NCBI GenBank assembly: GCA_009779265.1
Contig: WREP01000004.1
Coordinates: 1 to 64,000 of the forward strand
Reading direction: 5' to 3'
From: Betaproteobacteria bacterium
GTDB taxonomy: Bacteria; Pseudomonadota; Gammaproteobacteria; Burkholderiales; Rhodocyclaceae
DNA length: 64,000 nucleotides
A program made the position numbers and the translations under genes. Shown here one piece after another: positions 5,400 through 27,876 of this stretch (its first letter is position 1; each line of letters opens with the position of its first letter). The notes under the pieces were generated by a model, which did not search any database, was not told the DNA's origin, and saw only the letters and a list, made by a program, of their open reading frames with translations.

Positions 5400-6143
<744 letters not shown>

Positions 6144-6153
6144 AGGAGTAGTA

Positions 6154-7438: not shown

Positions 7439-9484
7439 ATGTCTGAAGCATTGCTGTTGGCGCTGGCTTGCGCCGTGGTTGCCGTTCTCTATGGCTGGAT
7501 TTCCAGCCGCCAGATTCTCGCCTTGCCAGCCGGCAACGCGCGCATGCAGGAAATTGCCAAGGCCATCCAGGAAGGGGCGGCGGCTTATCTGAGCCGGCAG
7601 TACAAGACCATTGCCATGGTCGGCGTGGCCATCGCCATCCTTATCGCCATCTTTCTCGGTATCGGCACCGCCGTCGGTTTCGTCATCGGTGCCGTGCTTT
7701 CCGGCGCCGCCGGCTTCATCGGCATGAACGTTTCCGTGCGCGCCAATGTGCGTACCGCCGAAGCGGCCCGCGGCGGCATCGCCCCGGCCCTCGGCGTCGC
7801 CTTCAAGGGCGGCGCCATCACCGGCATGCTGGTGGTCGGTCTCGGCCTCTTCGGCGTTGCCGGTTACTACGCGCTCTTGCCGCTTTTCGGCCTGTCCCAG
7901 GATCAGGCGCTGCACGCCCTGATCGGTCTGGCCTTCGGCTCCTCGCTGATTTCCATCTTCGCCCGTCTCGGCGGCGGCATCTTCACCAAGGGCGCCGACG
8001 TCGGCGCTGACCTGGTCGGAAAGGTCGAGGCCGGCATTCCCGAGGACGATCCGCGCAACCCGGCGGTGATCGCCGACAACGTCGGCGACAACGTCGGCGA
8101 CTGCGCCGGCATGGCCGCCGACCTGTTCGAAACCTATGTCGTCACCGTGGTGGCGACCATGGTGCTCGGCGCGCTGACCCTCAAGGGTCTGTCCACCGAT
8201 CTCGGCGCCAACCTGATCCTCTATCCGCTGGCGCTCGGCGCCGTCTCCATCATCGCCTCCATCGTCGGCTGCTATTTCGTCAAGACTTCCGATGGCGGCA
8301 AGATCATGGGGGCGCTGTACAAGGGCCTGATCGTCGCCGGCGTGCTGGCGCTGGCGCTTTACTATCCGGTCACCGCCTGGCTGATCGGCGCGGGTGACGC
8401 GGCGGCCGGCATTACCACCGGCAGCATGTTCCTTTGCTCGATCATCGGTCTGGTGCTGACCGCGGCCCTGGTCTGGATCACCGAGTACTACACCGGCACC
8501 GAGTACGGCCCGGTCAAGCACGTTGCCTCGGCCTGCCAGACCGGCCACGCGACCAACATCATCGCCGGCATCGGCGTTTCGATGAAGGCTTGCGCCCTGC
8601 CGGTCATTTCCGTCTGCCTGTCGATCTGGGCCGCCTATACGATCGGCGGCCTGTACGGCCTGGCCATCGCCGCCACCTCGATGCTGTCGATGGCCGGCAT
8701 TGTCGTCGCCCTCGACGCCTACGGCCCGATCACCGACAATGCCGGCGGCATCGCCGAGATGTCGGAATTGCCGCCCGAAGTACGCAATGTCACCGATCCG
8801 CTCGACGCCGTCGGCAACACCACCAAGGCGGTAACCAAGGGCTATGCCATCGGCTCCGCCGGCCTTGCCGCGCTGGTGCTCTTCGCCGACTACACGCACG
8901 GTCTGGAAGCGGCCGGCGCGACGGGCATCAGTTTCGACCTCTCCAACCACATGGTCATCATCGGCCTCTTCATCGGCGGCCTGATTCCCTACCTCTTTGG
9001 CGCCATGGCCATGGAAGCGGTCGGCCGCTCGGCTGGCGCGGTGGTGGTCGAGGTGCGCCGCCAGTTCAAGGAAATTCCCGGCATCATGGAAGGCACGGCG
9101 CGCCCCGATTACTCGCGGGCGGTGGATATGCTGACCGTCGCGGCCATCAAGGAAATGATGATTCCGTCCATCCTGCCGGTTGCCGTGCCCATCGTCGTCG
9201 GCCTCCTGCTCGGCCCGCAGGCGCTCGGCGGTCTCCTCGTCGGCACCATCGTCACCGGCCTCTTTGTCGCCATTTCGATGACGACCGGCGGCGGTGCCTG
9301 GGACAACGCCAAGAAATACATCGAGGACGGCCACTTCGGCGGCAAGGGTTCGGAAGCGCACAAAGCTGCCGTCACCGGCGACACGGTGGGCGACCCCTAC
9401 AAGGATACGGCCGGCCCGGCGGTCAACCCGCTGATCAAGATCATCAACCTGGTGGCCCTGCTGATCGTGCCGCTGATTGTCTGA
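7439..9484 (+). CDS. hppA: K+-independent H+-translocating membrane pyrophosphatase
   Basis: Integral membrane pump coupling PPi hydrolysis to proton export. The 681-residue, roughly 16-helix protein has the substrate motif [11 protein letters not shown], the acidic motif DNVGDNVGD, and the C-terminal DNAKKYIE plus [15 protein letters not shown] signature. The sequence [10 protein letters not shown] has Lys where K+-dependent enzymes have Ala, so I assign the K+-independent class. Directly downstream of pfp and followed by a strong terminator at 9502, it probably forms an operon with pfp. Confidence 0.96.
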
Positions 9485-14836: not shown

Positions 14837-15811
14837 ATGCTAGCATTCGCCGCCATGATTTCCCCGCCGCTACCCCCCGCCATCCTGCTCATGGGCCCGA
14901 CCGCCTCGGGCAAGACCGCCGTGGCCCTGGCCCTGGCCGAGCGTTTTCCCGTCGAACTGGTCAGCGTCGATTCGGCGCAGGTTTTCCGCGACATGGATAT
15001 CGGCACGGCCAAGCCGGATAGCGCGACGCTGGCCCGCCATCCGCACCGCCTGATCGACCTCATCAGCCCGGAAGAAAGTTATTCGGCGGCGCGTTTTCGC
15101 ACCGACGCGCTGGCGGCGATGGCCGAGATCGCGGCGGCCGGCAAGGCGCCCTTGCTGGTCGGCGGCACCATGCTCTATTTTCGCGCCCTGCTGCACGGCC
15201 TGGCCGATCTGCCGCAGGCCGACGCCGCCTTGCGTGCCGAGATCGACGCCGAGGCCGCCGAACGGGGCTGGCCGGCGATACATGCCCGCCTCGCCGCGCT
15301 CGATCCGCTTACCGCCGCCCGCCTGCATCCGACCGACAGCCAGCGCCTGCAACGGGCGCTGGAAATCTGCCTGTTGAGCGGCCAGCCGATGTCGGAACTG
15401 CTCGCTGCCAGCGCGCGTCAGGCGCCGCCCTGGGATTTTCTCAGCCTCGCCCTGCTGCCTGGCGACCGTGCCGCGCTACACGCGCGCATCGCGCGGCGTT
15501 TCGATGCCATGCTGCTGGCCGGCCTCGACGACGAACTCCACCGCCTGCGCCAGAAATACACGCTCAACCTGAACCTGCCGTCGATGCGCTGCGTCGGCTA
15601 CCGCCAGATGTGGCAGGCGCAGGAGGGTCTGCTATCGCGCCCGGAAATGCGCGAGCGCGGCATTTATGCCACGCGCCAACTGGCCAAGCGGCAGATTACC
15701 TGGATTGGCAATTCCTTCACCGCCGAGCGCTTCGACTGCCTGGCGCCCGATCTGGCCGATCTCGTCAGCCGCCGCGTCGATGGCTTTCTCACCGCAACGG
15801 CGCCAGGCTGA
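14837..15811 (+). CDS. miaA: tRNA dimethylallyltransferase MiaA
   Basis: Adds the dimethylallyl group to A37 of tRNAs reading UNN codons. The P-loop GPTASGKT is at residues 20-27, followed by [18 protein letters not shown], the prenyl-acceptor region [16 protein letters not shown], and the tRNA-binding region [11 protein letters not shown] and [12 protein letters not shown]. Length 324 is normal. Start is uncertain: ATG 14837 or the ATG 18 bases later (MISPPLPP); neither has a strong Shine-Dalgarno. Convergent with the zinc-ribbon cluster. Confidence 0.94.
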
Positions 15812-15825
15812 GCCGGCATCGGGAG

Positions 15826-15853
15826 AAAAAACCGGCGCCACATTGGGCGCCGG
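15826..15853 (-). terminator. rho-independent terminator, minus strand
   Basis: Stem CCGGCGCC/GGCGCCGG with a 6-base loop, followed on the minus strand by TTTTTT. It lies 22 bases past the stop of the membrane zinc-ribbon gene and ends that minus-strand cluster. Confidence 0.85.
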
Positions 15854-15874
15854 GAGCAATGCTTTTGGCGGCGC

Positions 15875-17125
15875 TTACGTGAGCTTGTAGCCGCAGTTGC
15901 CGCAGAACCTGTCGTCGGGCGTCACGGTTTCGTGGCAGCCGGGGCATGACAGAGCTTGCTGCTGATCTGCATCGCGCCGATCCTGTTCAGCTTCCGCCAT
16001 GGCCCCAGCCTCGGCCTCCAGCCGGGCCGCTTCCCGTTCCGTGGCCTCCTGTTCGGCCTTGCGCCGCGCGGTTTCCTCGGCGGCCAAGCGGGCTTCTTCC
16101 TCTTCGGCTTTGCGGCGCGCCGCCTCCTCGGCCTTCGCGGCCCGCGCCTGCTTGACCTGCTCGGCGGCGGCCACGGCGCGGTTCCTGGCGTCCTCGGCGC
16201 GCTGGCGCACCGTGCCGATAAGACCGTCGAGCGCGCCTTCGGCATCGGCGGCGTCCACGCCTTCCCGTACCTGCAAGTACACCAGATTCATGCCCATAAT
16301 CATGACCTGAACCATGAGCGCGCCGACGACCATGAACATGGCGGCAAGCCCCAGAACCAGTCCCGCCATGTTGCCGCCCGCGAACATGCCGATCAGGGAA
16401 GAAACATTGCCGCCGCCGCCGATGATGGCCGCCGCCATGGCGGTCAGGGCGAGACTGGCGGGCACAAGGCCGGAAAAGAGCAGCATGCTGATAATGCCGA
16501 TGATGATGTAGAGCACCAGTTCAAGCAGCACCACCTCGACCAGCCGCTGGCGCGCGATGCCCAGCACATTGGCCAGGGCCGCCTTGAATGTCAGGCCGCT
16601 CCAGACCGCCGGGGCGAACAGCGGATAGATGACCCAGAACAGCGCCACGAGGGCCGCGCCCGCCGCCAGCACCAGAAGGGGATGGACGACGAAGGCGAGA
16701 ATGGCGCCAAGCGCGGGAATCTTGCAGAGCAAGTAGAGCAGCGCCGCCACGAGCATGAAGGCGATGACCGCGATCAGCAACACGACCGCGAACAGCAGGA
16801 ACTTGGGAATGCAGGCCAGACCGAAGGTGAGGGCGTCGCCGAACGAGCGCGCCGGCTCGTTCCTGGCCTTGTCCATAAGCATGACGCCGACGGCGGAAAT
16901 GCCGCCCATGACGACGATCGCGGCGGCCAGGGCGAAGATCAGGACGACGATGCCGCCCGTGAAGCCGCCGATGGCTGTGCCCAGCAACTGGCCGACCAGG
17001 ATGACGGCAAAGGCCAGCAACAGGGTGAGAAAACCCAGCAGCATGGGGCGCCACTGGGTCATGCCCTCGCCCGCGCGCGCCAGGGTGGCGAAGCGGACTT
17101 CGCCGAGAATCTGATTTGCTGCCAT
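15875..17125 (-). CDS. multi-pass membrane protein with coiled coil and C-terminal zinc ribbon
   Basis: Unrecognised 416-residue protein. Residues about 28-285 form six or more hydrophobic segments with Gly- and Ala-rich spacing; about 290-380 is a highly charged Ala/Glu/Arg coiled coil (repeated AEEAARRKAEEEEARLAAEE-like sequence); the end is a single zinc ribbon CPGC-x10-CGNCGYKL. It is last in a three-gene minus-strand cluster with a lipoprotein and a second zinc-ribbon membrane protein, and is followed by a strong terminator. Function unknown; the arrangement suggests an envelope complex with cytoplasmic zinc-ribbon contacts. Confidence 0.8.
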   Translation of the reverse strand: MAANQILGEVRFATLARAGEGMTQWRPMLLGFLTLLLAFAVILVGQLLGTAIGGFTGGIVVLIFALAAAIVVMGGISAVGVMLMDKARNEPARSFGDALTFGLACIPKFLLFAVVLLIAVIAFMLVAALLYLLCKIPALGAILAFVVHPLLVLAAGAALVALFWVIYPLFAPAVWSGLTFKAALANVLGIARQRLVEVVLLELVLYIIIGIISMLLFSGLVPASLALTAMAAAIIGGGGNVSSLIGMFAGGNMAGLVLGLAAMFMVVGALMVQVMIMGMNLVYLQVREGVDAADAEGALDGLIGTVRQRAEDARNRAVAAAEQVKQARAAKAEEAARRKAEEEEARLAAEETARRKAEQEATEREAARLEAEAGAMAEAEQDRRDADQQQALSCPGCHETVTPDDRFCGNCGYKLT

Positions 17126-17167
17126 ATTCCGTCCCCCGTGAATGAAATGATGAAGCGCCGGTTGCGC

Positions 17168-17773
17168 TCAGGGCTGAAGCTGCCCGCTGATGGGGCCCGG
17201 CTGGATGGTGTAGCGCTCGCTGCCCGCCGCTAGCGTGCGGTCGACGTTCTTGCGCACCGCCACGGGCTTGCCGCTCGCGGTCTGGGTCGTGCCGGTGGCG
17301 GTGTTGACGCGGCGGGCACGGACATCGGCCTCCGCCTGATCGACCACGATGCTGGACGAACCGCGGCTGTCGGCCAGTTCATTGGCCAGATTCTTCAGCG
17401 CCTCCATGGCGCGCGTGTATTCGGGACGGCTCTTGGCGGCCAGCGGCAGGGTGACGCTGACGGATTCCAGCGCCTGCATCTTGCGTTTTTGCTCGCTTTG
17501 GCCGTCGCTGATCTCGACATCCGCCAAACGCACGTTGCCGGCCACGGCGCGCTGGCCTGACGGCAGACCTTGCATGGCGCTTACAGCCTGCTCCTGGGCC
17601 GCGCGCGCCTGCTGGATCTCATGATCGAGAACGGCCTGTAACTTGCCGAAACGTTCGTCCTGCGTCTGACAATCACGCGACAGCTTGCAACTCAGGTTGT
17701 TGGAGGCGTTCTCCAGCGTGGCGCAGCCGCCGACGAGCAGGGCGGCGCAGGTGATCAGAGTGAGATATCGCAT
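17168..17773 (-). CDS. predicted lipoprotein with helical domain
   Basis: 201-residue exported lipoprotein of unknown function. The signal peptide MRYLTLITCAALLVGGC ends in a lipobox (LVGGC, Cys17). The mature part begins with two more cysteines (SCKLSRDC) that could form a disulfide, then a Gln/Glu/Ala-rich helical stretch (residues about 40-130), and a C-terminal region ending in SERYTIQPGPISGQLQP. It is the middle gene of the zinc-ribbon cluster; the genes lie 42 and 70 bases apart on the same strand. Confidence 0.75.
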   Translation of the reverse strand: MRYLTLITCAALLVGGCATLENASNNLSCKLSRDCQTQDERFGKLQAVLDHEIQQARAAQEQAVSAMQGLPSGQRAVAGNVRLADVEISDGQSEQKRKMQALESVSVTLPLAAKSRPEYTRAMEALKNLANELADSRGSSSIVVDQAEADVRARRVNTATGTTQTASGKPVAVRKNVDRTLAAGSERYTIQPGPISGQLQP

Positions 17774-17843
17774 GGCAGGCTCGGGTCATGGGCGCCAAGG
17801 CGCGGCCCGCTTGGGCCGTTTTCTGGCGCGGTAAGGTTGGCGT

Positions 17844-18557
17844 TCAATCCAGCAAATCGTTCAATGTGGGCTTGGGTCGGTTTTGCGGGGGCGGGTTGGG
17901 TTGCGCCGGTCTGCTGGCGGGCGGCGCCGGCTCGGAAGCGGATTCGGACGGTAACGCGCTCGGAGGCTGCTCGGGCGTCGCGGCAGCGACGGGCGTCTTG
18001 TCCTGTTCCGCCTTGCCCTGTTCCTTATCCTGTTGCGAAATGGCGTTGCCGCTGGGGGCCGTGTCGGTCGGGCTGGCGGATTGATCCGGCTTGCGCGCCA
18101 GGAACAGGCCGCCAAGGCACACGACGATCAGCAGCGCCGCGATGAGGGCCCATTTGATCCAGGGCTGGCCGCCCGCAGCGCCTGCGCGGCTGTTAGAAAC
18201 CGTGCCCTGTTGCGCGTAATCAAGCGGCGGGGTCGCCACGGCAGAGGCAGCGGCATCCGGCGTGCTGCGCGGATCGGCTGCCGGCGCTGCGATTACAGGC
18301 GGCGCAGCGGCAAGCGGCGCAGCGGCAAGCGGCGCATCGGCCAGCGGCGCATCGGCCAGCGCGGGTGCGGCTGGCGGAAAAGTGTTTCCGCATTGCGGGC
18401 AGAATTTGGCCTGCGGTTTGCACAGCGCATGGCAATGGGCGCAGGACTTCTCGTCGGCGTCGACTTGCGGCGTCGGCGCGGCCTGCCGGGCAGCGCCACA
18501 ATGGTTGCAGAACTTGGCGGTTACAGCGATGGGATTGCCGCACTGTGAACAATTCAT
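17844..18557 (-). CDS. double zinc-ribbon single-pass membrane protein
   Basis: 237-residue protein of unknown function. The N-terminus carries two zinc ribbons (CSQCG-x9-CNHCG and CAHCH-x9-CPQCG). Then comes an Ala/Pro-rich linker containing a five-residue repeat (APLAD/APLAA), one membrane helix (WALIAALLIVVCLGGLFLA) and a Pro/Ser/Glu-rich tail ending in PTLNDLLD. I start it at the ATG at 18557 because the first zinc ribbon begins at once (MNCSQCG); the upstream in-frame ATG adds 16 residues. First gene of the cluster, downstream of purM on the same strand. Confidence 0.78.
   Translation of the reverse strand: MNCSQCGNPIAVTAKFCNHCGAARQAAPTPQVDADEKSCAHCHALCKPQAKFCPQCGNTFPPAAPALADAPLADAPLAAAPLAAAPPVIAAPAADPRSTPDAAASAVATPPLDYAQQGTVSNSRAGAAGGQPWIKWALIAALLIVVCLGGLFLARKPDQSASPTDTAPSGNAISQQDKEQGKAEQDKTPVAAATPEQPPSALPSESASEPAPPASRPAQPNPPPQNRPKPTLNDLLD
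18301..18360. repeat. four tandem 15-bp repeats inside a coding region
   Basis: Four contiguous 15-bp units: two copies of GGCGCAGCGGCAAGC then two of GGCGCATCGGCCAGC. They encode the APLAA/APLAD repeat in the linker of the double zinc-ribbon protein. Repeat number could vary by slippage without breaking the frame. Confidence 0.9.
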
Positions 18558-18677
18558 TTTTGTTGGCCTAAAAGCTGCGAACTGCGAACTGCGGAGTACT
18601 GCCAAGCGTGTCGATCCGAAACTTGGCTATCCTACTCTTGCTGGTCTTGATCCGGCAAGATCAAGGGTTGGCGGCAA

Positions 18678-19730
18678 TCAGACCACCAAAGTCTGCGCTT
18701 CGTCGCCCTGACGCGCCCTGATGTGGCCGATGCGATAAACGCTTTCGCCCTGGGCCGCGAGTTCGGCCATGGCCGCCTCGGCATCGGCTGCGGCGACGAC
18801 CAGCGCCAGACCGATGCCGCAATTGAAGACGCGGTGCATTTCGTTCTCGGCGACCTGGCCTTCGGCTTGCAGCCAGTCGAACAGCCTGGGGCGCGGCCAG
18901 GCGGCCTTGTCCAAATCGGCCACGGTATTTTCCGGCAGCACGCGCGGCAGGTTTTCGAGCAGGCCGCCGCCGGTGATATGGGCCATGCCCTTGATCGCCA
19001 CCTTTTTCAGCGCCGCCAGCACCGGCTTGACATAGATGCGCGTCGGCGCCATGAGCACGTCGGCCAGGGTGCGCGCTTGGCCGTCGACCTCGTCGAACGG
19101 AGCGTTAAGGTCGGGCTGGGCGCGTTCGATGATCTTGCGCGCCAGCGAATAGCCGTTGGAATGGGCGCCGGAAGAAGCCAGGCCCAGCACCACGTCGCCC
19201 GGGGCGATGGATTTGCCGTCGATGATCCGCGATTTTTCGACGACGCCGACCGCGAAGCCGGCCAGATCGTATTCGCCGGCCGGGTACATGCCCGGCATTT
19301 CCGCCGTTTCGCCGCCAATCAGCGCGCAGCCGGCCAGTTCGCAGCCCCTGGCGATACCGCTGACGACCGCCGCGGCGGTGTCGACATCGAGCTTGCCGCA
19401 GGCGAAATAATCGAGGAAAAACAACGACTCGGCGCCCAGCACCAGGATGTCGTTGACGCTCATCGCCACCAGATCCTGGCCGACGCTGTCGTGGCGGTTG
19501 AGGTCGAAAGCCAGCTTGAGCTTGGTGCCAACGCCGTCGGTTCCCGACACCAGCACCGGCTCCGCATAGCGTTTGGGCACCTCGAACAGGGCGCCGAAAC
19601 CGCCGATGCCGCCGAGCACGCCGTCGCGCAGCGTCTTTCGGGCAAGCGGTTTGATGCGGTCGACCAAGGCATCGCCCGCGTCGATATCGACACCGGCGTC
19701 GCGGTAGGAGAGGGGGGATTTCACGGTCAT
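18678..19730 (-). CDS. purM: phosphoribosylformylglycinamidine cyclo-ligase PurM
   Basis: AIR synthetase of purine biosynthesis: FGAM plus ATP gives aminoimidazole ribonucleotide. The 350-residue product has the family landmarks [47 protein letters not shown], the Gly-rich [12 protein letters not shown], and [13 protein letters not shown]. No other pur gene is adjacent. It is upstream of the zinc-ribbon cluster on the same strand with a 120-base gap and no strong terminator between, so read-through is possible. Confidence 0.96.
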
Positions 19731-19798
19731 GTCGGGCAGGTCAAGGTGCTGAAAAGACGGATTTTACCCGAAAGCGGGGTGGCGCCTTTCCGCATTGA

Positions 19799-19822
19799 CG
19801 GTAATGGGCTTTTCAATTACCG
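19799..19822. promoter_or_regulatory. inverted repeat at the toxin-antitoxin promoter
   Basis: CGGTAAT and ATTACCG arms of 7 bp with a 10-base spacer, 36 bases upstream of the antitoxin start. A weak promoter (TTGACG at 19795, 17-base spacer, TACCGT) overlaps it. Such operators are typical sites of antitoxin autoregulation; binding is inferred. Confidence 0.45.
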
Positions 19823-19857
19823 TTCGGCTTATCGGATTGATTTTCATGGAGCCTGTC

Positions 19858-20124
19858 ATGTCATCGCTCACGATCACGGCCAAGGGCCAGGTCACGCTGA
19901 AGCGGGATTTGCTGCAACATCTCGGCATCAAGCCTGGGGAACGGGTCGATTGCGAAAAGCTGCCCGGCGGCGAGTTGCGGGTACGGGCGGCAAGGCCGAC
20001 CGGCACCATCGACGGCTTTATCGGGCTGTTAGCCGGCAAGGTGAAAATGGAAAAACCGCTGACCATCGAGGAAATGAATGACATCGCGGCAGCAGGTTGG
20101 GCCGGTGAGTTGAATGACAAATGA
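19858..20124 (+). CDS. AbrB/MazE-type antitoxin (VapB-like)
   Basis: 88-residue antitoxin with a swapped-hairpin AbrB DNA-binding domain at the N-terminus (LTITAKGQVTLKRDLLQHLG, then IKPGERVDCEKLPGGELRV) and an acidic C-terminal tail that would wrap the toxin. I chose the ATG at 19858 because GGAG sits 6 bases before it; an ATG 12 bases earlier lacks that. Its 3' end overlaps the PIN toxin start by four bases, the standard antitoxin-toxin arrangement, and an inverted repeat upstream fits autoregulation. Confidence 0.87.
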   Translation: MSSLTITAKGQVTLKRDLLQHLGIKPGERVDCEKLPGGELRVRAARPTGTIDGFIGLLAGKVKMEKPLTIEEMNDIAAAGWAGELNDK

Positions 20125-20519
20125 AAATCACCGCCGATACCAATGTGCTGGTCCGCGCCATTCTGCAAGATGATCCGGCGCAGTGCCGCGCCGCCTGCAA
20201 GCTGCTCAGGGAGGCAAGCCTGATCGCGGTTTCGTTGCCATCCCTGTGCGAATTGGTCTGGATACTGCGGCGGGGCGCGAAGCTGGCGAAAGAGGATATT
20301 TTTTCCGCCATCCAGGCGTTGCTCGCTAGCGAAAACGTGGTTATGAACCGGCCCGCCGTTGAGGCCGGGTTGGCCCTGCTGGAGGCCGGTGGCGATTTCG
20401 CCGATGGCGTCATGGCGCACGAAGGCAAATGGCTGGGCGGCGAAATTTTCGTCTCGTTCGACCGGCAAGCGGTCACCTTGCTGTCGCGGCGCGGAGAAGC
20501 GGCGCACTTGCTGTCCTGA
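20121..20519 (+). CDS. PIN-domain toxin (VapC-like ribonuclease)
   Basis: 132-residue PIN nuclease, predicted toxin of the preceding antitoxin. The acidic metal-binding residues are visible: Asp6 (ITADTNVLVRA), Glu44 (LPSLCELVW), Asp92/Asp95 (GGDFADG) and Asp114 (SFDRQAV). RNA target is unknown. Starts inside the antitoxin stop codon region. Confidence 0.9.
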   Translation: MKITADTNVLVRAILQDDPAQCRAACKLLREASLIAVSLPSLCELVWILRRGAKLAKEDIFSAIQALLASENVVMNRPAVEAGLALLEAGGDFADGVMAHEGKWLGGEIFVSFDRQAVTLLSRRGEAAHLLS

Positions 20520-20534
20520 TCGCCGGGTGCGGAA

Positions 20535-21422
20535 ATGTCGCTTGTGGGATTCTCTGATTCGCTACTGGCCGCCGTCGGCGCTGCCATCGGCGCGGCGACG
20601 GGGCGGGCTTTTGTGGCGCGGGCGGCGACGCCGGTCGTTGGGGGCGATATCAACACGGCCTACCGCCTCGATGGCGCGGATGGCGCGCGCTATTTCCTCA
20701 AACTCAACGAAAAACGGCGGCTGCCGATGTTCGTTGCCGAGGCGGCAGGGCTGGCGGTTCTGGCGGCGGCGGGCGCTGTGCGCGTACCGGCGGCGATTGC
20801 CCACGGTTGTGCCGGGGGGCGCAGCTTTCTCGTGCTGGAATATCTGGAATTCACCGCCCACGGCAATGCGCGCCTCTTGGGTGAACAACTTGCCGCGTTG
20901 CATCGCTGCACCGCCGGGCGTTTCGGTTTTGACCATGACAATTTCATCGGCTCGACGCCGCAGGCCAACGGCTGGCGCGACAACTGGATCGACTTCTGGC
21001 GTGAGCAGCGCCTCGGCCCGCAGTTGCGGTTGGCGGCAGGTTATGACGAGTCGCTGTGCACTCTCGGCGCGGCGCTGCTGGCGCGGCTGCCGGATTTCTT
21101 CACCGATTACGAACCGCGGGCTTCGCTACTGCACGGCGATTTGTGGGGCGGCAATCATGCCTTTACGGCGGATGGCGCGCCAGTCATTTTCGACCCCGCG
21201 CCCTATTACGGCGACCGCGAAAGCGATCTGGCGATGACCGAACTGTTCGGCGGCTACGAGCCGGATTTCTACGCCGCCTATCACGCCGCCTGGCCGTTGC
21301 ACCCCGGTTATGCCCGGCGCAAGATGCTGTACAAGCTTTACCACATCCTCAATCACGCCCATCTGTTCGGCGGCGGCTACGCGCGTCAGGCGGAGACGAT
21401 GATGCGGACATTGCTGACCTGA
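20535..21422 (+). CDS. fructosamine kinase family protein
   Basis: Predicted to phosphorylate fructosamine/ribulosamine adducts on proteins or amines, a deglycation step. The 295-residue product has the FN3K kinase-like fold: VVGGDINTAYRL, catalytic HGDLWGGNHAF near residue 200, and the metal-binding DPAPYYGDRESDLAM. Length and motifs fit the bacterial YniA/FN3K group. It starts 15 bases after the toxin gene; the functional link is probably only proximity. Confidence 0.9.
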   Translation: MSLVGFSDSLLAAVGAAIGAATGRAFVARAATPVVGGDINTAYRLDGADGARYFLKLNEKRRLPMFVAEAAGLAVLAAAGAVRVPAAIAHGCAGGRSFLVLEYLEFTAHGNARLLGEQLAALHRCTAGRFGFDHDNFIGSTPQANGWRDNWIDFWREQRLGPQLRLAAGYDESLCTLGAALLARLPDFFTDYEPRASLLHGDLWGGNHAFTADGAPVIFDPAPYYGDRESDLAMTELFGGYEPDFYAAYHAAWPLHPGYARRKMLYKLYHILNHAHLFGGGYARQAETMMRTLLT

Positions 21423-21456
21423 TTTACCGCACTTTCCCGGTATCATGGCCGCCATC

Positions 21457-22161
21457 ATGAAAATCCTCATCGTCGACGACGAGCCGGCCATTGCCGATAC
21501 CCTGGCTTACGCGCTGCGGGGCGAGGGTTTTGCTTGCGAGCACTGCCTCCTCGGCGGTGCGGCGCTGGACAGGCTGGCGGCGGGGGCGGGGGATTTCGCG
21601 CTGGTCGTGCTCGATGTCGGCCTGCCGGACATGAGCGGTTTCGATGTCTGCCGGCAACTGCGCCGCCATTCGGATATTCCGGTGCTTTTCCTTACCGCCC
21701 GCGCCGACGAGGTGGATCGCATCGTCGGGCTGGAACTGGGCGGCGACGATTATGTCGCCAAGCCTTTCAGTCCGCGCGAGGTGGTATCGCGCATCCGCGC
21801 CATTCTGCGCCGCCTGCGCCCGGATAACGGGCAGCCCGCCGCCAGCGGCAAACCGGCGGAAACGGATGGCAAAGCGGGCGGCCGTTTCGCCGTCGACCGC
21901 GCCGGTCTGCGCATCGCCTTCCACGGTTGCTGGCTCGACCTGACCCGCTACGAATACCTGCTACTGGCGCTGCTGCTCGAACGGCCGGGGCGCGTCCTGT
22001 CGCGCATGCAGATCATGGAGGCGGTCTGGCAGGACGGCGGCGACAGTCTGGAACGCACCGTGGATACGCATATCAAGACCCTGCGCGGCAAGCTGCGGGC
22101 GGTGCGCGACGAGGACGTGATCCACACCCATCGCGGCCTCGGCTACAGCCTGAGCGGATGA
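21457..22161 (+). CDS. creB: response regulator CreB
   Basis: OmpR-type regulator of the CreBCD regulon (carbon source/envelope and beta-lactam-linked responses in enterics and pseudomonads). The receiver domain begins MKILIVDDEPAIADTLAYAL, with phospho-acceptor Asp in VVLDVGLPDMSG and Lys in AKPFSPRE; the C-terminal winged helix ends RTVDTHIKTLRGKL...HTHRGLGYSL. I take the ATG at 21457 since the domain starts there; an ATG 12 bases upstream is possible. creC follows after 7 bases, and the CreB target gene creD with a matching binding site lies at 26.5 kb. Confidence 0.9.
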   Translation: MKILIVDDEPAIADTLAYALRGEGFACEHCLLGGAALDRLAAGAGDFALVVLDVGLPDMSGFDVCRQLRRHSDIPVLFLTARADEVDRIVGLELGGDDYVAKPFSPREVVSRIRAILRRLRPDNGQPAASGKPAETDGKAGGRFAVDRAGLRIAFHGCWLDLTRYEYLLLALLLERPGRVLSRMQIMEAVWQDGGDSLERTVDTHIKTLRGKLRAVRDEDVIHTHRGLGYSLSG

Positions 22162-22168
22162 TCGCGCG

Positions 22169-23596
22169 ATGAATATCTCCATCCGCCTGTTTTTCGGCTT
22201 TTTCCTGATTGTCGGGCTGGCCGCCTGGTTCGTGCTTAATATTTTCGCCCAGGAAAGCGAGCCGGGCATTCGCCAGGCGACGGAGGAAACCCTGGTCGAC
22301 ACCGCGCAAGTGCTGGCCGAAATGGCGGCGCCCGATCTGGCCGCTGGCCGCATCGCGGATGGCCCCTTCGCCGAGGCGGTGCGCGAAGCCCTGCAACGCC
22401 GGCTCCAGGCCAAGATTTTCGAGGTGCTCAAGGAAAGCGTCGATCTGCGCATCTACATCACCGATGCCAAAGGCATCGTCGTCTACGATTCGAAAGGCGC
22501 CGCCGTCGGCGAGGATTTCTCGCGCTGGCGCGACATCGTCCGCGCCCTGCGCGGCGAGTACGGTGCCCGCCAGACGCGCGACAACCCGGACGACCCGATG
22601 ACCTCGGTCATGCACGTGGCAGCGCCCGTCGTCTACCAAGGCGAGCGGATCGGCGCGCTCTCCCTGGCCAAGCCGATGTCGTCGCTGGTTCCCTACATCG
22701 AGCGCGCTGCCGACCGCGTCAAGTCTTCCGGGCTGATCCTGCTGCTGGCGGCGGCGGCTATCGGCCTCTTGTTCACCTTCTGGCTCGGTTGGTCCATCGA
22801 CCGTCTGCGCGATTACGCCCGCGCTGTCGCCAGCGGCCACAAGGCCGAAGCGCCGACCGGCGGCGGTCGGCAGTTGTCGGAACTGGCCCGCGCCCTGGCG
22901 ACCATGCGCGAAAAGCTCGAAGGCAAGCAGTACGTCGAGCGCTATGTGCAAAACCTGACGCACGAGATGAAAAGCCCGCTCACCGCCATTCGCGGCGCCG
23001 CCGAAATTCTCGCAGACGACCCGCCTGCCGAGGATCGCCGCCGCTTCATCGGCAGCATCGCCGAACAGACGGAACGCCTGCAAGCGACCATCGAGCGCAT
23101 GCTGATGCTGGCCCGCGTCGAGCAATTGCAGGCGCCGGAAGGCCAGGAGACGCTGTTCCCGGCCAATCTGCTCAACGATTGCCTGGAACTGCGCCGCCCG
23201 GCCCTGGCCGCCCGCAGCTTGCAGGCCGAAATGCGCCTCGACGACAACCGGCCGATCCGTGGCGACGCTTTTTTGCTGCAACAGGCGCTGCTCAATCTGC
23301 TCGACAATGCCATCGAATTCTCGCCCGACGGCGGTGTCATCGAACTCGTCATCCGTTCACGCGGCGACATGGTCGAATTCGCTATTCGCGACCACGGCGA
23401 AGGCGCGCCCGATTACGCCCTGGAACAGTTGTTTACCCGCTTCTATTCGCTGCCCCGGCCCGCCACCGGCAAAAAAAGCAGCGGCCTCGGCCTCGCCCTG
23501 GTCCGCGAAGTCGCCCGCCTGCACGGCGGCGAGGCTGCATTCGCCAACCACCCGGAAGGCGGCGGCGAGGTCAGTTTCCGCATTCCGGCGGGTTGA
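22169..23596 (+). CDS. creC: sensor histidine kinase CreC
   Basis: 475-residue membrane kinase partner of CreB. First membrane helix near 5-27, a periplasmic sensor domain to about 185 (contains DLRIYITDAKGIVVYDS as in CreC), second helix near 192-210, HAMP region, phospho-acceptor His in LTHEMKSPLTAIRG, and the ATPase boxes NLLDNAIEFS, DHGEGAPDY and GLGLALVREVA. Signal unknown. Downstream lies a convergent gene after 10 bases. Confidence 0.92.
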   Translation: MNISIRLFFGFFLIVGLAAWFVLNIFAQESEPGIRQATEETLVDTAQVLAEMAAPDLAAGRIADGPFAEAVREALQRRLQAKIFEVLKESVDLRIYITDAKGIVVYDSKGAAVGEDFSRWRDIVRALRGEYGARQTRDNPDDPMTSVMHVAAPVVYQGERIGALSLAKPMSSLVPYIERAADRVKSSGLILLLAAAAIGLLFTFWLGWSIDRLRDYARAVASGHKAEAPTGGGRQLSELARALATMREKLEGKQYVERYVQNLTHEMKSPLTAIRGAAEILADDPPAEDRRRFIGSIAEQTERLQATIERMLMLARVEQLQAPEGQETLFPANLLNDCLELRRPALAARSLQAEMRLDDNRPIRGDAFLLQQALLNLLDNAIEFSPDGGVIELVIRSRGDMVEFAIRDHGEGAPDYALEQLFTRFYSLPRPATGKKSSGLGLALVREVARLHGGEAAFANHPEGGGEVSFRIPAG

Positions 23597-23606
23597 AGCC
23601 CAGCCC

Positions 23607-24572
23607 TTACGCCGCCGCGCCGTCATCCAGGCAATACAACCGCGCGCCGGGATGGACGCGGGAGAGTTGGCGGTTTTCCTTGTCGGCGAGCAGGAAGTCG
23701 GGCCATTCGGCATTTCGCCTGAAGCAGAAGCGGCGCGGCAGATCGGTGTAAAGCGAGCGCGGCGGCAGACGCTGGGCGATGCGCTTCAACAGGCGGCCGC
23801 TGTCCTCGCTGTGGTAGTAGATGACGCGCAAGCCCAGTTCGTCGCGCAGGAAGGCGATGGCCGCCCAGAGCATGGCTTCGGCCCAGATCGGGCGGTATTG
23901 CTCGCCGACGTGGCGGCAGTAGTCGAGCGTCGGGCGCAGGGGCAGTTGACAGCCACGGTAGGAAATCGCGGCGTCGGCGGCGGCTCCGGCGTGGCGTTTC
24001 AGTAGCCAGCGTTCGAGATCGGCGGCCCGGCGCAGCCAGTCGGTCTGGATTTCCTCGATCAGCGCGCTGCCGCTCGCCCAGTCGAGGTCGATGCGCGCCC
24101 AGGCGAGCGTGTGGCGCTGGCGGGCGACGGGATGGCCGTAGAACTGGAACAGATCGTCGTTCGCGCCAAGGCGGCGGTAGCGCTGCGCGTGCTCGTGGTT
24201 GAAGTTGAGTTGCAGGACGAGATTGACGCCGGGGCGCGAAGTTTGCTGGTGACGCCAATCGGCGCGGCGCTCGTCGCCCCAGGTTGCCAGGGTGAGGATG
24301 AAGGCGGCTTGGGCGGCGTCGTAGTCGCTGGCGGCGAGTACGGCGTCGTCGAGGGCAGGGCCGCAGCCGGCGAGGATGTTTTTGAGGCGCGGCTTTTCCA
24401 GCAGGCCGGCGTAGGCGGAACGGCGCAGGGCGGCGACCGGCGCGCGCCGGCCCGGCTGCCGGCGGCAGTAGTGGCGCAGGAGGCCGATGCCGTAGCGGTC
24501 ACGATAGTAGGGATAGACGGTGCGTTCGCCTTGCAGGCAGGCGATGATTTCGTCGGCGAGTTGACGGTTCAT
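23607..24572 (-). CDS. conserved unknown protein with EIQTDW motif, rtcB operon
   Basis: 321-residue cytoplasmic protein I cannot name. Central segment FQFYGHPVARQRHTLAWARI leads to ALIEEIQTDWLRR, similar to the EIQSDW motif I know from polyvalent phage proteins; afterwards AMLWAAIAFLRDELGLRVIY and RRFCFRRNAEWPDFLL. Rich in Arg, Trp and Tyr. GGAG precedes its ATG. It is third in the minus-strand rtcB operon, after rtcB and a 64-residue gene, suggesting a role with RNA ligation or repair. A 45-codon ORF with a strong AAGGAG overlaps its 5' end in another frame (24499-24636), perhaps for translational coupling. Confidence 0.75.
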   Translation of the reverse strand: MNRQLADEIIACLQGERTVYPYYRDRYGIGLLRHYCRRQPGRRAPVAALRRSAYAGLLEKPRLKNILAGCGPALDDAVLAASDYDAAQAAFILTLATWGDERRADWRHQQTSRPGVNLVLQLNFNHEHAQRYRRLGANDDLFQFYGHPVARQRHTLAWARIDLDWASGSALIEEIQTDWLRRAADLERWLLKRHAGAAADAAISYRGCQLPLRPTLDYCRHVGEQYRPIWAEAMLWAAIAFLRDELGLRVIYYHSEDSGRLLKRIAQRLPPRSLYTDLPRRFCFRRNAEWPDFLLADKENRQLSRVHPGARLYCLDDGAAA

Positions 24573-24657
24573 GGATGACTCCGGGGAATGCGGTAAGGGA
24601 TAGCGAACTGCGCGGTGTCTTGGGCAGGGCGGTCATGGTTTTCTCCTTGGTAAAAAG

Positions 24658-24852
24658 TCAGTCAACTTCAAATTCGGCCAGATCGCCGGCAAGCAGCGCC
24701 ACCAGCGATTGCTGGGTGCGCTGCCGCGCCTGCTGGCGGACGGCCTTGCGGGTGTTGCCGTGCGGCCCGGCGCGGCGGGTCAGGCCGGGCACCAGCAACG
24801 GATTGCGCGGTCGGCTTTGCGGCAGGATGAGAGTGAGGGTTTTACGGGCCAT
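24658..24852 (-). CDS. small basic protein of the rtcB operon
   Basis: 64-residue protein of unknown function. The first 45 residues are rich in Arg, Lys and Gln (PQSRPRNP, TRRAGPHGNTRKAVRQQARQ), the last 15 are acidic/hydrophobic (ALLAGDLAEFEVD). It starts three bases after the rtcB stop, with AAGGGG overlapping the rtcB end, so it is coupled to rtcB. The basic N-terminus would suit RNA or protein contacts; that is inference. Confidence 0.65.
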   Translation of the reverse strand: MARKTLTLILPQSRPRNPLLVPGLTRRAGPHGNTRKAVRQQARQRTQQSLVALLAGDLAEFEVD

Positions 24853-24855
24853 CGC

Positions 24856-26064
24856 TCACCCCTTGACGCAGAGGACTTGTTTCAGGGTATGGACGATTTC
24901 CACCAGATCGCGCTGGTTGTCCATGACCTGATCAATGTCCTTGTAAGCCGCCGGGATTTCGTCCACCACGCCGCCATCCTTGCGGCACTCGATCCCCGCC
25001 GTCTGCGCTTCCAGGTCGAAGCGGGAAAAGCGCCGCTTGGCGGCGCTGCGGCTCATGCGCCGGCCGGCGCCGTGAGAGCACGAACAAAACGATTGCTCCT
25101 CGCCCAAACCGCGCACGATGTAGGAACGCGCCCCCATGCTGCCGGGAATGATGCCCAATTCGCCCGCCCGCGCCGAAATGGCGCCCTTGCGGGTGATGAA
25201 CAGGCCTTCCCCGAAATGTTGCTCGCGGGCCACGTAATTGTGGTGGCAGTTGATCGCCTCGCCGTCGAGACGGAAAGGCGGCAACTTCGTTTTCAGCACG
25301 TCGAGCACGGCGGCCAGCATCTGCTGGCGGTTGAGCAGGGCGTAATCCTGCGCCCATTCCACCGCCGCCACGTAATCGTCGAACAGTTCCGAACCCTCGC
25401 TGAAATAGGCGAGATTGCGGTCCGGCAGACGAATCCGGTGGCGCTGCATGTCTTTTTGCGCGGCGGCGATGAAGTAACGGCCGATGACGTTGCCGATGCC
25501 GCGCGAGCCGGAATGCAGCATGATCCAGACGCGATCCGTCTCGTCCAGGCACAGTTCGATGAAATGGTTGCCGCCGCCCAGCGTGCCGATCTGACAGAGC
25601 CAGGTTTCGTTGAAGCGGCGCTGCATTTTCATCAGCCCCGGATGCCTGCCGACAATGGCATCCAGCCGCGCGTCGAGCGAGCGCCCGGCACGCTGCAAGG
25701 CGCTGCCGCGCATACGGCTGGCGGCGTGCTGTTCGAAGCCGCACGGCACCGCGCCCTCGATGCCCAGGCGCAGGGCGCGCAGGGTATCGGGCAACTGCCC
25801 GGCAGAGAGCGAAGTGCGCACCGCATTCATGCCGCAACCAATGTCCACGCCGACGGCGGCCGGGATGATCGCCCGCCGGGTCGGAATCACGCTGCCGACG
25901 GTGGCGCCGGTGCCGGCATGCACGTCCGGCATCGCCGCGACGTGGCCGTGCACGATAGTCAGCGATGCCACATTCAGCAGTTGCTGGATGGCCTCGGTTT
26001 CGATATCGCGCGTCCATACCTTGACCGGGACGCGCCCTTTGTTCAGTTCAATTTGAATGCCCAT
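24856..26064 (-). CDS. rtcB: RtcB-family RNA ligase
   Basis: GTP/Mn-dependent ligase joining 2',3'-cyclic-phosphate or 3'-phosphate RNA ends to 5'-OH ends. The 402-residue product has the metal-site motifs MPDVHAG (His49), VGVDIGCGMN (Asp74, Cys77), LGGGNHFIEL, MLHSGSRG, and the guanylylation histidine in SHGAGRRMSR near residue 330. The ATG at 26064 follows AGGA and fits the family start (MGIQIELNKG); an upstream in-frame start adds 19 residues. No rtcA, archease or rtcR is in the window. It heads a three-gene minus-strand operon inserted between creBC and creD. Confidence 0.93.
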   Translation of the reverse strand: MGIQIELNKGRVPVKVWTRDIETEAIQQLLNVASLTIVHGHVAAMPDVHAGTGATVGSVIPTRRAIIPAAVGVDIGCGMNAVRTSLSAGQLPDTLRALRLGIEGAVPCGFEQHAASRMRGSALQRAGRSLDARLDAIVGRHPGLMKMQRRFNETWLCQIGTLGGGNHFIELCLDETDRVWIMLHSGSRGIGNVIGRYFIAAAQKDMQRHRIRLPDRNLAYFSEGSELFDDYVAAVEWAQDYALLNRQQMLAAVLDVLKTKLPPFRLDGEAINCHHNYVAREQHFGEGLFITRKGAISARAGELGIIPGSMGARSYIVRGLGEEQSFCSCSHGAGRRMSRSAAKRRFSRFDLEAQTAGIECRKDGGVVDEIPAAYKDIDQVMDNQRDLVEIVHTLKQVLCVKG

Positions 26065-26135
26065 GATGGATTCCTGGATGCTGCTTGAATCGGAATCCGG
26101 GCGGCGGCAAGGCCGCGTCAACCGCCGGTGGAAAA

Positions 26136-26168
26136 GAAAAACCCCGGCAGTTGGCCAGGGTTTTCTTT
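26136..26168 (-). terminator. terminator-like hairpin in the rtcB leader
   Basis: On the minus strand, AACCCTGGC pairs with GCCGGGGTT (one G-U) around a 5-base loop, followed by TTTCTTTT. It lies between the 11-codon leader ORF and rtcB, 70-100 bases upstream of the rtcB start. As a true terminator it would cut transcription before rtcB, so it is a possible attenuator; it is also roughly symmetrical and could act on the plus strand. Confidence 0.5.
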
Positions 26169-26220
26169 CCCGGCCCGGATTCGCTTGACAGCGCGTTCCG
26201 GGCGACGACTCGCCTGCGGC

Positions 26221-26256
26221 TCAGCGCTGGAAAACCTCGTTGGCAATGGCAGGCAT
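26221..26256 (-). CDS. possible 11-residue leader peptide upstream of rtcB
   Basis: ORF of 11 codons, MPAIANEVFQR, with an unusually good ribosome site: TAAGGAG six bases before the ATG. It lies 157 bases upstream of rtcB, between a candidate promoter and the terminator-like hairpin. No amino acid run suggests which supply it could sense. It could be a leader peptide or a chance ORF. Confidence 0.35.
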   Translation of the reverse strand: MPAIANEVFQR

Positions 26257-26299
26257 GTCGTACTCCTTAGGGTGAATTGGGTGAATGAAACGAAGCGCC

Positions 26300-26328
26300 A
26301 GTGTCGCGTGTGAATACGACAGGGTCAA
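26300..26328 (-). promoter_or_regulatory. candidate sigma-70 promoter for the rtcB operon
   Basis: Minus-strand TTGACC (26323-26328), 17-base spacer, GACACT (26300-26305; three of six -10 matches). The direction and distance suit the leader ORF and rtcB. TTCAC pairs with N4 spacing (26271-26285 read on the minus strand) follow it. Confidence 0.4.
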
Positions 26329-26364
26329 GTGAGGGCGGTCGCCGGAGTGGCGCACGAACAACAG

Positions 26365-26384
26365 ATGTTGCATAGGCGCAACAT
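26365..26384. promoter_or_regulatory. operator-like palindrome upstream of the rtcB promoter
   Basis: ATGTTGC and GCAACAT, perfect 7-bp arms with a 6-base spacer, 37 bases upstream of the candidate -35 box. The protein that binds it is unknown. Confidence 0.45.
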
Positions 26385-26462
26385 ATTGAGGATTGGCCGC
26401 CTCAGCCGCTGGAACGGATGAACTTCTACACCTAACCGGACACCAATCAGCCACCGCTTATC

Positions 26463-26488
26463 TTCACCCCCACTTCACACAACTTCAC
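26463..26488 (+). promoter_or_regulatory. CreB binding site (cre-tag) upstream of creD
   Basis: TTCAC-CCCCAC-TTCAC fits the known cre-tag TTCAC-N6-TTCAC exactly; a third TTCAC follows after 5 bases, and a TTCGT half after 6 more (26495). It lies 69-94 bases upstream of the creD ATG. The rest of the 492-base gap 26065-26556 holds the rtcB leader elements listed above; nothing else was recognised there. Confidence 0.8.
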
Positions 26489-26556
26489 CGCCGCTTCGTC
26501 ATGCCCTCACCCGGCGGCGCGAGAGTGCTCGCGTCATTTCAACCGGGGAGTGCATC

Positions 26557-27876
26557 GTGGACCGCAAGCTGATATTCAAGATTCTCGCCATCGTCGGCCT
26601 GAGCTTTTTGCTGCTCGTGCCGCTGATACTGATCGAGGGGCAGATCGCCGAGCGCAGCATGCGCCAGGATGAGGTCGAGCGCAGCATTGCCAATGGCGCG
26701 GCGGGGCCGCAGACGCTGGTCGGGCCGGTGATTCAGTTGCGCTACCGCAAGCGCGTGACGGAAACCCGGCGCGACGAGGGAAGCAAGCGGCCGGTGACGA
26801 CGACGAGAATCGTCCGGTACAGCCAGGTGTTTTCGCCGGAAACCCTGAGCATCGCGGGCGAAGCCAGTGTGGAGACGCGCCAGCGCGGCATTTATCAGGC
26901 CCGCCTGTTCCATCTCGATGCGGTCATCGCGAGCGATTTCAAGGTCAGCGTGCCGGCGGCCAGCGCCATCGAGCAGTTGCTCGATGCCGAGGCTGTGCTG
27001 ATTCTCGGTGTGTCCGATCCACGCGGCCTTGCCAATGATCCGGAAGTGCGGATCAACGGCCAGCCCCATCGCTTCGGCACCGACTGGGCGGCGGAAGAGT
27101 TGCACTCGAAGCAGTTGAGCATTCCGCTCGGGCCGCTGGAACTGGGCAAGACCTACGATTTCGCGGTCAGTTTCCCCCTGCAACTGACCGGCACGTCGCG
27201 CCTCTCCATCGCGCCGGTCGGCGATAGCAACAGCATCCGCCTCAAGTCGGCCTGGCCGCATCCCAATTTCGGCGGGCGCTTTTTGCCGCGCGAACGCAGC
27301 GTTGGCGACGACGGTTTCACGGCCCGCTGGGAAATCTCCCATCTCGCCCGCGATTTCACTGAAACGCTCAATCAGCACAGCGGCGAGTCGTTGTCGGTGG
27401 ATTTCATCGACCCGGTGAATATCTACCTGCAATCGGAACGGGCGGTGAAATATGGCGCGCTGTTCATCGTGCTGACCTTCGCCGCCTTTTTCCTCACCGA
27501 AGTCCTGCGCCGGGCGCCGATCCATCCACTGCAATATCTGCTGGTCGGCCTCGCGCTCGCCATCTTCTTCCTGCTGCTCATCGCCTTTTCCGAGCACATG
27601 GCCTTCGCGGCGGCCTACGGTCTGGCGGCGGCGGCCTGCATCGGGTTGATCGCCTGGTATCTGGCCGGGGCGCTCGGCGGCTGGCGGCGTGGCGCGGCCT
27701 TCGGCGCCGGCCTGAGCGGCCTCTACGGCGTGCTCTACGGCGTCCTGTTGTCGGAGGACAACGCCTTGCTCATGGGCAGCCTGCTGCTTTTCATCGCCCT
27801 TGGCGCTGTCATGTTCACCACCCGTCGGCTGGATTGGTACCGATTGAGCCAGAACGCGCCGGAGCGGGCGCAATGA
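26557..27876 (+). CDS. creD: inner membrane protein CreD
   Basis: 439-residue protein of the CreD family, the main target of CreBC, linked to envelope stability and stress. One N-terminal membrane helix at about 7-26 (VGLSFLLLVPLILIEG), a large periplasmic domain to about 300 (contains LVGPVIQLRYRKR and AWPHPNFGGRFLPRER, both typical), then about five C-terminal helices. A GGGGAG ribosome site precedes the ATG and a cre-tag lies upstream. It is separated from creBC by the rtcB operon. The next gene overlaps by four bases. Confidence 0.93.
   Translation: MDRKLIFKILAIVGLSFLLLVPLILIEGQIAERSMRQDEVERSIANGAAGPQTLVGPVIQLRYRKRVTETRRDEGSKRPVTTTRIVRYSQVFSPETLSIAGEASVETRQRGIYQARLFHLDAVIASDFKVSVPAASAIEQLLDAEAVLILGVSDPRGLANDPEVRINGQPHRFGTDWAAEELHSKQLSIPLGPLELGKTYDFAVSFPLQLTGTSRLSIAPVGDSNSIRLKSAWPHPNFGGRFLPRERSVGDDGFTARWEISHLARDFTETLNQHSGESLSVDFIDPVNIYLQSERAVKYGALFIVLTFAAFFLTEVLRRAPIHPLQYLLVGLALAIFFLLLIAFSEHMAFAAAYGLAAAACIGLIAWYLAGALGGWRRGAAFGAGLSGLYGVLYGVLLSEDNALLMGSLLLFIALGAVMFTTRRLDWYRLSQNAPERAQ

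Follow-up and report, generated by a model that had tools for sequence, protein, structure and literature searches.

Organisation of the rtcB-P2-P3 locus

The stretch of DNA analysed here, which we call the window, comprises 64,000 nucleotides (nt; positions 1-64,000 of contig WREP01000004.1, assembly GCA_009779265.1, from a Betaproteobacteria bacterium of the Rhodocyclaceae). It carries the RNA ligase gene rtcB followed by the genes for two uncharacterised proteins, P2 and P3, and preceded by a structured leader that is the main subject of this work; all of these lie on the minus strand, as do the leader features described below except the palindrome, to which no strand is assigned. The rtcB gene (26064-24856) encodes 402 amino acids and matches PF01139 with an E value of 2.2e-128. 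Residues 28-402 align to positions 1-426 of the profile at 429.6 bits against a cut-off of 27, a full-length match that predicts a canonical RtcB RNA ligase, and the protein scored under the cut-offs of the RtcB2 subtype profiles TIGR03073 (153.9 versus 271.8 bits) and NF007153 (184.1 versus 407 bits). P2 (24852-24658) is a basic protein of 64 amino acids with the family core RNPxxxxPLMRKGGxHxKSxxAxR, and P3 (24572-23607) has 321 amino acids and the family motifs LIEEIQTDWxR and PPRSLYxxLPRRFCF, both being encoded by open reading frames (ORFs). P2 starts 3 nt past the rtcB stop codon and P3 starts 85 nt past P2, a spacing that suggests a single transcript for the three genes.

Upstream of rtcB lies a palindrome, TGTTGC-N6-GCAACA (26366-26383), a putative operator or activator site whose near edge is 37 nt upstream of the -35 hexamer of a sigma-70-like promoter (TTGACC-17-GACACT, 26328-26300); the promoter is a consensus match only, its -10 hexamer fitting the consensus at 3/6 positions. 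There follow a Shine-Dalgarno (SD) motif, AAGGAG (26268-26263), an 11-codon mini-ORF encoding MPAIANEVFQR (26256-26221), and a terminator hairpin (26160-26137), identified by folding and comparison, in which CCCUGGC (26154-26160) pairs with GCCGGGG (26142-26148) ahead of a T run. A short ORF with an SD followed by an intrinsic terminator is the layout of leader-peptide attenuation, and the predicted fold of the leader is very stable (z = -5.2, with 0/200 shuffles as stable).

The initial annotation of this DNA had described the gene order, the tight spacing and each of these upstream elements, all of which were confirmed. It had also remarked that the usual partners of rtcB were missing, which holds at the locus for rtcA and rtcR, no search having been made for archease. 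Specifically, rtcA (PF01137) was not found anywhere in the genome assembly, which is 94% complete, and rtcR was not found beside the window's rtcB; the only RtcR (PF06956) lies on contig C9 (24441-25013), where it adjoins, in divergent orientation, a slipin gene and a second, divergent RtcB of the same genome. The genome seems to run two RtcB systems under two kinds of control. In the C9 region used for comparison (15500-27500, locus L120), which carries the divergent RtcB, the slipin and the divergent RtcR, a tRNA-Met-like gene was predicted within the slipin frame.

Alternative helices in the leader

From the SD to the T run the leader is strongly conserved in 13 beta loci, which we refer to as type A (other comparison loci carry L-numbers, and WIN denotes the window's own locus and leader). 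Within it, arm a' in the start-codon region (26249-26261) can pair with arm a (26205-26217), located 3 nt past the stop codon of the mini-ORF. The inner part of a (26210-26214) can pair with b (26201-26205), and an outer a:b helix (26189-26229) brings together CAGCGC, in the last two codons (26224-26229), and GCGCUG (26189-26194). Arms b and c form a hairpin (26173-26203) from GCCCGGA (26197-26203) and UCCGGGC (26173-26179), while c and d form an antiterminator (26153-26175) from GGCCGGG (26169-26175) and CCCUGGCC (26153-26160), which excludes the terminator helix d:e. In the window these helices comprise 12 of 13 possible pairs (a':a), 5 plus 6 pairs (a:b), 7 (b:c), 7 with one bulge (c:d) and 7 (d:e).

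Several of these pairings are accompanied by compensatory changes. In the type-A alignment, A3, the column pair 15/67 of a':a occurs as CG, GC, UA, AU and UG, and the a:b pair 65/81 is GC in 7 and AU in 5 of the 13 leaders, both sides having changed in 5/13; the outer a:b helix has 6 base pairs in 7/13 and is shortened in 6/13. For the OFF structure as a whole, 93.8% of cells are paired and 7 cells have changed on both sides, values that 0/500 shuffles reached for either measure, versions slid along the alignment being paired in 29-41%; most of this covariation lies in a':a. This helix was also stronger than in shuffled sequences in 8 of the 25 leaders used (of 34) when tested singly, with an overall Fisher p of 7e-9. 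The predicted c:d antiterminator pairs in 13/13 type-A leaders (100% of the A3 cells) and is made of other letters in other lineages; its pairing has been kept by evolution. Finally, a script located the quoted arms in 14 leaders, and those of equal length were fully complementary except for one mismatch each in a':a of WIN and b:c of L107; three arms of unequal length were located only, the five helices are not all named for each leader, and the position returned for d:e of L180 is a false first match.

Distribution of the leader across lineages

All 13 type-A leaders have an ORF of 11-12 codons with an SD-like motif, and TTGAC at -55 to -65 together with a -10-like hexamer was present in 16 of the 19 beta leader loci with upstream sequence. 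When a covariance model built from the 13 type-A loci was run against 199 genomes of the family, five hits reached at least 114 bits, all of them just upstream of rtcB genes of the window's type, and the next best hit scored 33 bits. In other lineages the letters differ and the plan returns, with an SD, an ORF usually of 9-16 codons (26 in L102), complementary arms and a terminator, the b:c helix being swapped for different complementary pairs. Leaders also stand ahead of P3 operons without an adjacent rtcB (L096, L097 and, with a shortened P3, L109) and ahead of rtcB-P2 operons without P3 (L180-L184).

One fixed rule, requiring an SD, a mini-ORF and a terminator, found the element before 25/31 rtcB genes with P2 or P3 within 1.8 kilobases (kb) on the same strand, compared with 3/23 rtcB genes without them, most of them taken from the family to which the window belongs, and 10/343 control ORFs, which are long ORFs from the same loci and not all certain genes; the count omits rtcB genes with a slipin or P3 gene ending 300 nt or less upstream, as well as those with less than 200 nt of upstream sequence. 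The three positives without P2 or P3 are L116 and L118, whose rtcB genes are 75% and 72% identical to that of the window, and L035, whose P3 and P2 lie on the strand opposite rtcB and face it. The rule missed the leaders of L102, L111, L117 and L034, which are visible by eye, and it missed L039 and L043, where none was seen by eye either and P3 precedes rtcB. None of the five loci classed as RtcB2-PrfH had the element by the rule, and an SD with a short ORF was seen by eye before rtcB2 in L040 and L041 (2/4 of the RtcB2-PrfH loci with P3) and in L151 and L154 (2/4 of the others, L152 and L153 having none). Judging from these sequences, control through leader peptides may be widespread among RtcB-superfamily genes.

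P2 and P3 are conserved families associated with RtcB

P2 and P3 are two conserved families without an entry in the family databases that were searched. As single proteins they had no match in Pfam, NCBIfam or PADLOC at an E value of 1 (PADLOC having been searched with single proteins only), and their alignments gave only chance-level matches in Pfam, NCBIfam and PDB, as did P3, the one searched there, in PHROGs. No P3 was found in the plasmid and phage collections, nor with the P3 profile in viral contigs. Relatives of P3 occur at 41 loci in the species-level genome collection; counting the window's genome each time, they were detected in 6/101 family genomes by single-sequence search, and by profile in 13/369 class genomes and 2/398 phylum-level genomes. 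According to the record titles their hosts are Beta-, Gamma- and Alphaproteobacteria, Desulfobulbus-like bacteria, Myxococcales, Cerasicoccus, Puniceicoccaceae, Saprospiraceae and Rhodothermia. The contig of L011, titled Desulfobulbus, has a P3 84% identical to that of the window, and represents either a mis-binned contig or a recent transfer.

To count partners, the 64 P3 loci were reduced to 58 by removing six redundant ones and to 46 by removing 12 with short flanks, leaving those with at least 2 kb upstream and at least 1.5 kb downstream, and partners were counted within 3 kb on the same strand. Among these 46 non-redundant loci RtcB was near P3 in 33, P2 in 25, slipin in 10 and PrfH in 4; any of the four was present in 40, and none in the remaining 6. 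Moreover, RtcB was encoded somewhere in the genome in 13/14 P3 genomes other than the window's. The search for P2 alone found it in 18/229 class genomes. RtcB lay within 1.5 kb at 9 of these 18 loci (one being the window and one a fragment), P3 without RtcB at 2, and neither at 7, and wider stretches around these 7 still had no RtcB by profile. Directly before P2 in L174 (5694-6083, minus strand) we saw by eye a C-terminal RtcB tail with the rest of the gene missing, so that P2 may outlive a decayed rtcB.

The claim that rtcB, P2 and P3 form one unit is backed by this recurring co-occurrence. The initial annotation had itself offered a way to refute it, namely homologues found mostly away from rtcB; P3 comes out in its favour, and P2, split half and half, leaves the matter undecided.

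The order of the genes varies, being RtcB-P2-P3 in the beta group, RtcB-P3-P2 in the gamma group and some beta loci, and slipin-P3-RtcB, slipin-RtcB-P3-P2 or RtcB2-PrfH-P3 elsewhere, the last in L036, L040, L041 and L108. In L040 the P3 homologue of this locus (5992-6957) is split over two frames. Of the 33 P3 loci scanned for transfer RNA (tRNA) genes with ARAGORN, five had many beside P3 (23 in L038, 17 in L045, 13 in L043, 11 in L042 and 9 in L046), four had two or three (L031, L047, L104 and L106) and the other 24 had none or one. The five long arrays accompany slipin/RtcB/P3 clusters in bacteria that are unrelated, and beside the slipin-P3-RtcB-P2 cluster of L104 there is a tRNA-like gene (8587-8659, minus strand) with the anticodon TTA, which would read a stop codon. 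Because of these slipin, RtcB2-PrfH and tRNA-array contexts, part of the P3 family can be placed in an RNA-repair and tRNA-array neighbourhood.

As to what the two proteins do, our guess is that P2 probably binds RNA or the ribosome and that P3, whose conserved E, Q, D, R, H and K residues form an enzyme-like pattern, is probably an enzyme for the damaged substrates that RtcB would repair. Three more specific candidates were rejected: P2 as an ArfA-like rescue factor, a resemblance only, for which Pfam gave no match; a GNAT-like fold for P3, a likeness of motifs only; and P3 as a relative of phage polyvalent-protein domains, likewise a likeness of motifs only, with no viral relative found. Among the literature matches listed, no description of an rtcB-P2-P3 operon was seen. 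Burroughs and Aravind, in their 2016 review of RNA-repair systems, may already name P2 or P3 as neighbours, so their novelty as neighbours of RtcB is not certain.

A proposed translation-sensing switch

The helices suggest how the leader could act. In the absence of a ribosome a':a would form, followed by b:c and then d:e, and transcription would stop. A ribosome completing the mini-ORF would cover a while at the stop codon, b:c and d:e would again form, and transcription would also stop. A ribosome held at the start or at early codons would block a', so that a would stay free and form a:b, releasing c to pair with d; with c:d formed, RNA polymerase would read into rtcB, P2 and P3. Such an early hold could be caused by a damaged ribosome, a broken or uncharged tRNA or an antibiotic, and RtcB would then seal the broken ribosomal RNA or tRNA. 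Since damaged ribosomes and tRNAs cause early stalls, read-through on early stalling would suit an RNA-repair operon. The chemistry of RtcB as an RNA ligase is well established, and together with the RtcB2-PrfH and tRNA-array contexts of P3 and the precedent of PA5471.1-armZ (see below) it suggests a possible response to RNA cleavage.

To examine this scheme, transcripts ending at arm d were folded with the stretch under the ribosome masked. Placing the ribosome at the start codon rather than the stop codon made the antiterminator more probable in 25/29 leaders and less probable in 2; compared with free RNA, the start position raised its probability in 14/29 and lowered it in 2. Against 100 shuffles of the spacer, the difference between start and stop had p of 0.05 or less in 8/20 representatives (9 near-copies among the 29 leaders having been left out), with a combined p of 2e-5. 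Among five leaders found later, start exceeded stop in 4, and the same 4 exceeded the free RNA.

We propose, with a probability of about 0.6, that rtcB-P2-P3 is an RNA-repair operon controlled by a translation-sensing transcription attenuator. Attenuation had been suggested in the initial annotation and is supported by the comparative anatomy of the leaders, so that its overall interpretation is backed in part, namely for the unit and for attenuation.

A number of results weigh against the attenuator. In the masking test neither the window's own leader (start minus stop p 0.56; p 0.16 on a stricter measure, S) nor any of the four further type-A leaders tested was significant, and two leaders, L034 and L116, went the wrong way. 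Of the five later leaders, none reached significance by itself for start minus stop (p 0.06-0.59) and one did on S. Related leaders count as independent in the combined p-values, and all leaders but those five went into shaping the hypothesis. At equilibrium the full terminator dominates in every leader and ribosome state (0.9-1.0), so the switch must be kinetic. In type A the b:c helix and most of c:d are nearly invariant and offer little covariation, and in a greedy helix-chain test summed helix energies beat shuffles in only 19/29 leaders, although this test is blunt, missed arms plain by eye (for example in L037 and L102) and was not relied on. The type-A model at an E value of 0.1 matches 102/199 genomes, where the hits other than the strong ones score 33 bits or less and look like ordinary terminators, and it fails to detect the type-B leaders of the same family. 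L114, with an rtcB 83% identical to that of the window, has no such leader. Lastly, the conservation of the palindrome suggests that a protein regulator acts too.

The leader peptides differ across lineages (MPAIANEVFQR, MYLVQQVNDFN, MPICFKQDNKK, MNQRLIHKI) and share no amino acid beyond the start, so the mini-ORF should report general ribosome progress. On inspection no regulatory codons for one amino acid were seen in them, the only regularity being a final Arg in 19/20 beta leaders. From this a broader reading can be drawn, to which we give somewhat less than even odds: that these leaders belong to a widespread, undescribed class of attenuator blind to the amino acid, in which early stalls are a direct report of broken translation, wired to an RtcB-P2-P3 repair complex. 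Part of this reading is that nearly every letter of the leader has been rewritten while the chain of exclusive helices was kept, so that the logic rather than the sequence would be under selection.

Two alternatives we consider unlikely. The leader could be a binding element, either a riboswitch or a site of autoregulation by RtcB or P2, with a mini-ORF that is incidental or only couples translation; its high conservation within type A fits this, and a small basic protein such as P2 could bind RNA. Yet by eye no aptamer-like sequence is conserved across lineages, while the SD, mini-ORF and terminator persist, and Rfam gave no match in the window at the gathering threshold, the best sub-threshold hits at a relaxed threshold scoring about 20 bits. 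The second, similarly improbable, places control in a transcription factor acting on the palindrome, with the hairpin as a constitutive partial terminator. The exact palindrome occurs once in the genome assembly, and copies with at most one mismatch lie at -107 to -118 from the leader in 9/28 leader loci with upstream sequence, all beta (WIN, L010, L012, L013, L016, L018, L049, L112 and L034; the 29th locus, L015, has 14 nt upstream and was left out), which makes it likely that a regulator binds there. The palindrome is however missing from gamma and several beta leaders that still have the mini-ORF and terminator, and if it were the whole of the control the alternative helices would be needless.

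We regard as quite improbable that P2 and P3 are passengers, adjacent to rtcB by inherited order and sharing no function with it. This would agree with the sparse distribution of P3, with the six P3 loci lacking all four partners and with the seven P2 loci lacking RtcB and P3, but the association recurs in varied orders (RtcB-P2-P3, RtcB-P3-P2, slipin-P3-RtcB, RtcB2-PrfH-P3) and with divergent types of RtcB. Least probable of all is attenuation specific to one amino acid, with the mini-ORF sensing the charging of a single tRNA such as that for Arg at the last codon, which we rejected since, for all the regularity of the final Arg in the beta group, only L022 among the gamma-type leaders ends in Arg, the peptides have no amino acid in common across lineages, and the Arg codon sits within the paired CAGCGC segment, which can explain its conservation.

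Other features of the locus

A second conserved SD, AAGGAGAAAACCATGA, lies in the gap between P2 and P3 and is followed by an ATG opening a 45-codon ORF that overlaps the start of P3 out of frame (24636-24499, minus strand). The arrangement is present in 11/11 beta loci examined, several of which have a hairpin ahead of the SD, and possibly provides translational control of P3.

The operon is flanked by a response-regulator/sensor-kinase pair on one side and creD (PF06123) on the other. Across 21445-27873 it is inverted between these genes, as if inserted into the cluster, which we take to be of the creBCD type. Nearby on the plus strand (19795-20519), a small ORF without a Pfam match overlaps by 4 nt the gene of a PIN-domain protein (PF01850) that follows it, forming a VapBC-like pair.

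Comparison with known systems

In leader-peptide attenuators of the trp and his type, the position of the ribosome chooses between a terminator and an antiterminator. The logic proposed for the window's leader is the same, whereas that leader has no run of regulatory codons and no Rfam leader match at threshold.

Other RtcB operons are controlled by proteins. As described in PMC7790460, the rtcBA operon of E. coli and the rsr-yrlBA-rtcBA operon of Salmonella are under RtcR and sigma54 and are induced by RNA damage; they share RNA repair by RtcB with the window's operon, which differs in a genome without rtcA, a locus without rtcR, and a sigma-70-like promoter with an attenuator. If the attenuator is real, it bears on how rtcB operons without an adjacent RtcR sense RNA damage. 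In Anabaena, according to PMC10272220, the TrcR repressor controls rtcB and a slipin gene together with the trn tRNA operon, and translational stress turns on the tRNA array and rtcB. The slipin/RtcB/tRNA-array clusters that include P3 relatives resemble this system, although TrcR is a protein repressor and the window's leader is proposed to be an RNA attenuator. The RtcB2-PrfH operon (PMC9223846; see also PMC1586002) is followed by P3 in four loci, the window itself having neither RtcB2 nor PrfH. If the leader works as proposed, the P2 and P3 families would gain a testable home in RNA repair and tRNA-array clusters.

The closest known case appears to be the PA5471.1-armZ-prfH attenuator of P. 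aeruginosa, compared here by its published description rather than by alignment of the leaders. According to PMC12057347 and PMC13041342, the leader PA5471.1 controls armZ, described as RtcB-like, with prfH (PA5470) adjacent. Complete translation of the leader gives the terminator, whereas armZ is expressed when an amber codon stands early in it or when ribosomes stall in a way that involves codons 3 and 4, and the system is induced by ribosome-targeting drugs. Deletion of positions 1 to 226 of PA5471.1 raises ArmZ; because this deletion may remove the terminator too, the ribosome-free states of the two leaders, termination being predicted for that of the window, are not comparable. In both, an RtcB-family gene is preceded by a short leader ORF and a terminator, and they differ in that the window encodes a canonical RtcB with P2 and P3 in place of ArmZ and PrfH. 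Leader-peptide attenuation is thus already known from armZ; here it would be tied to canonical RtcB and a pair of uncharacterised families, and would have been rewritten repeatedly during evolution. If the proposal is correct, the operon has a built-in damage sensor through which a ribosome needing repair switches on its own repair, and the PA5471.1-armZ case extends to other RtcB operons.

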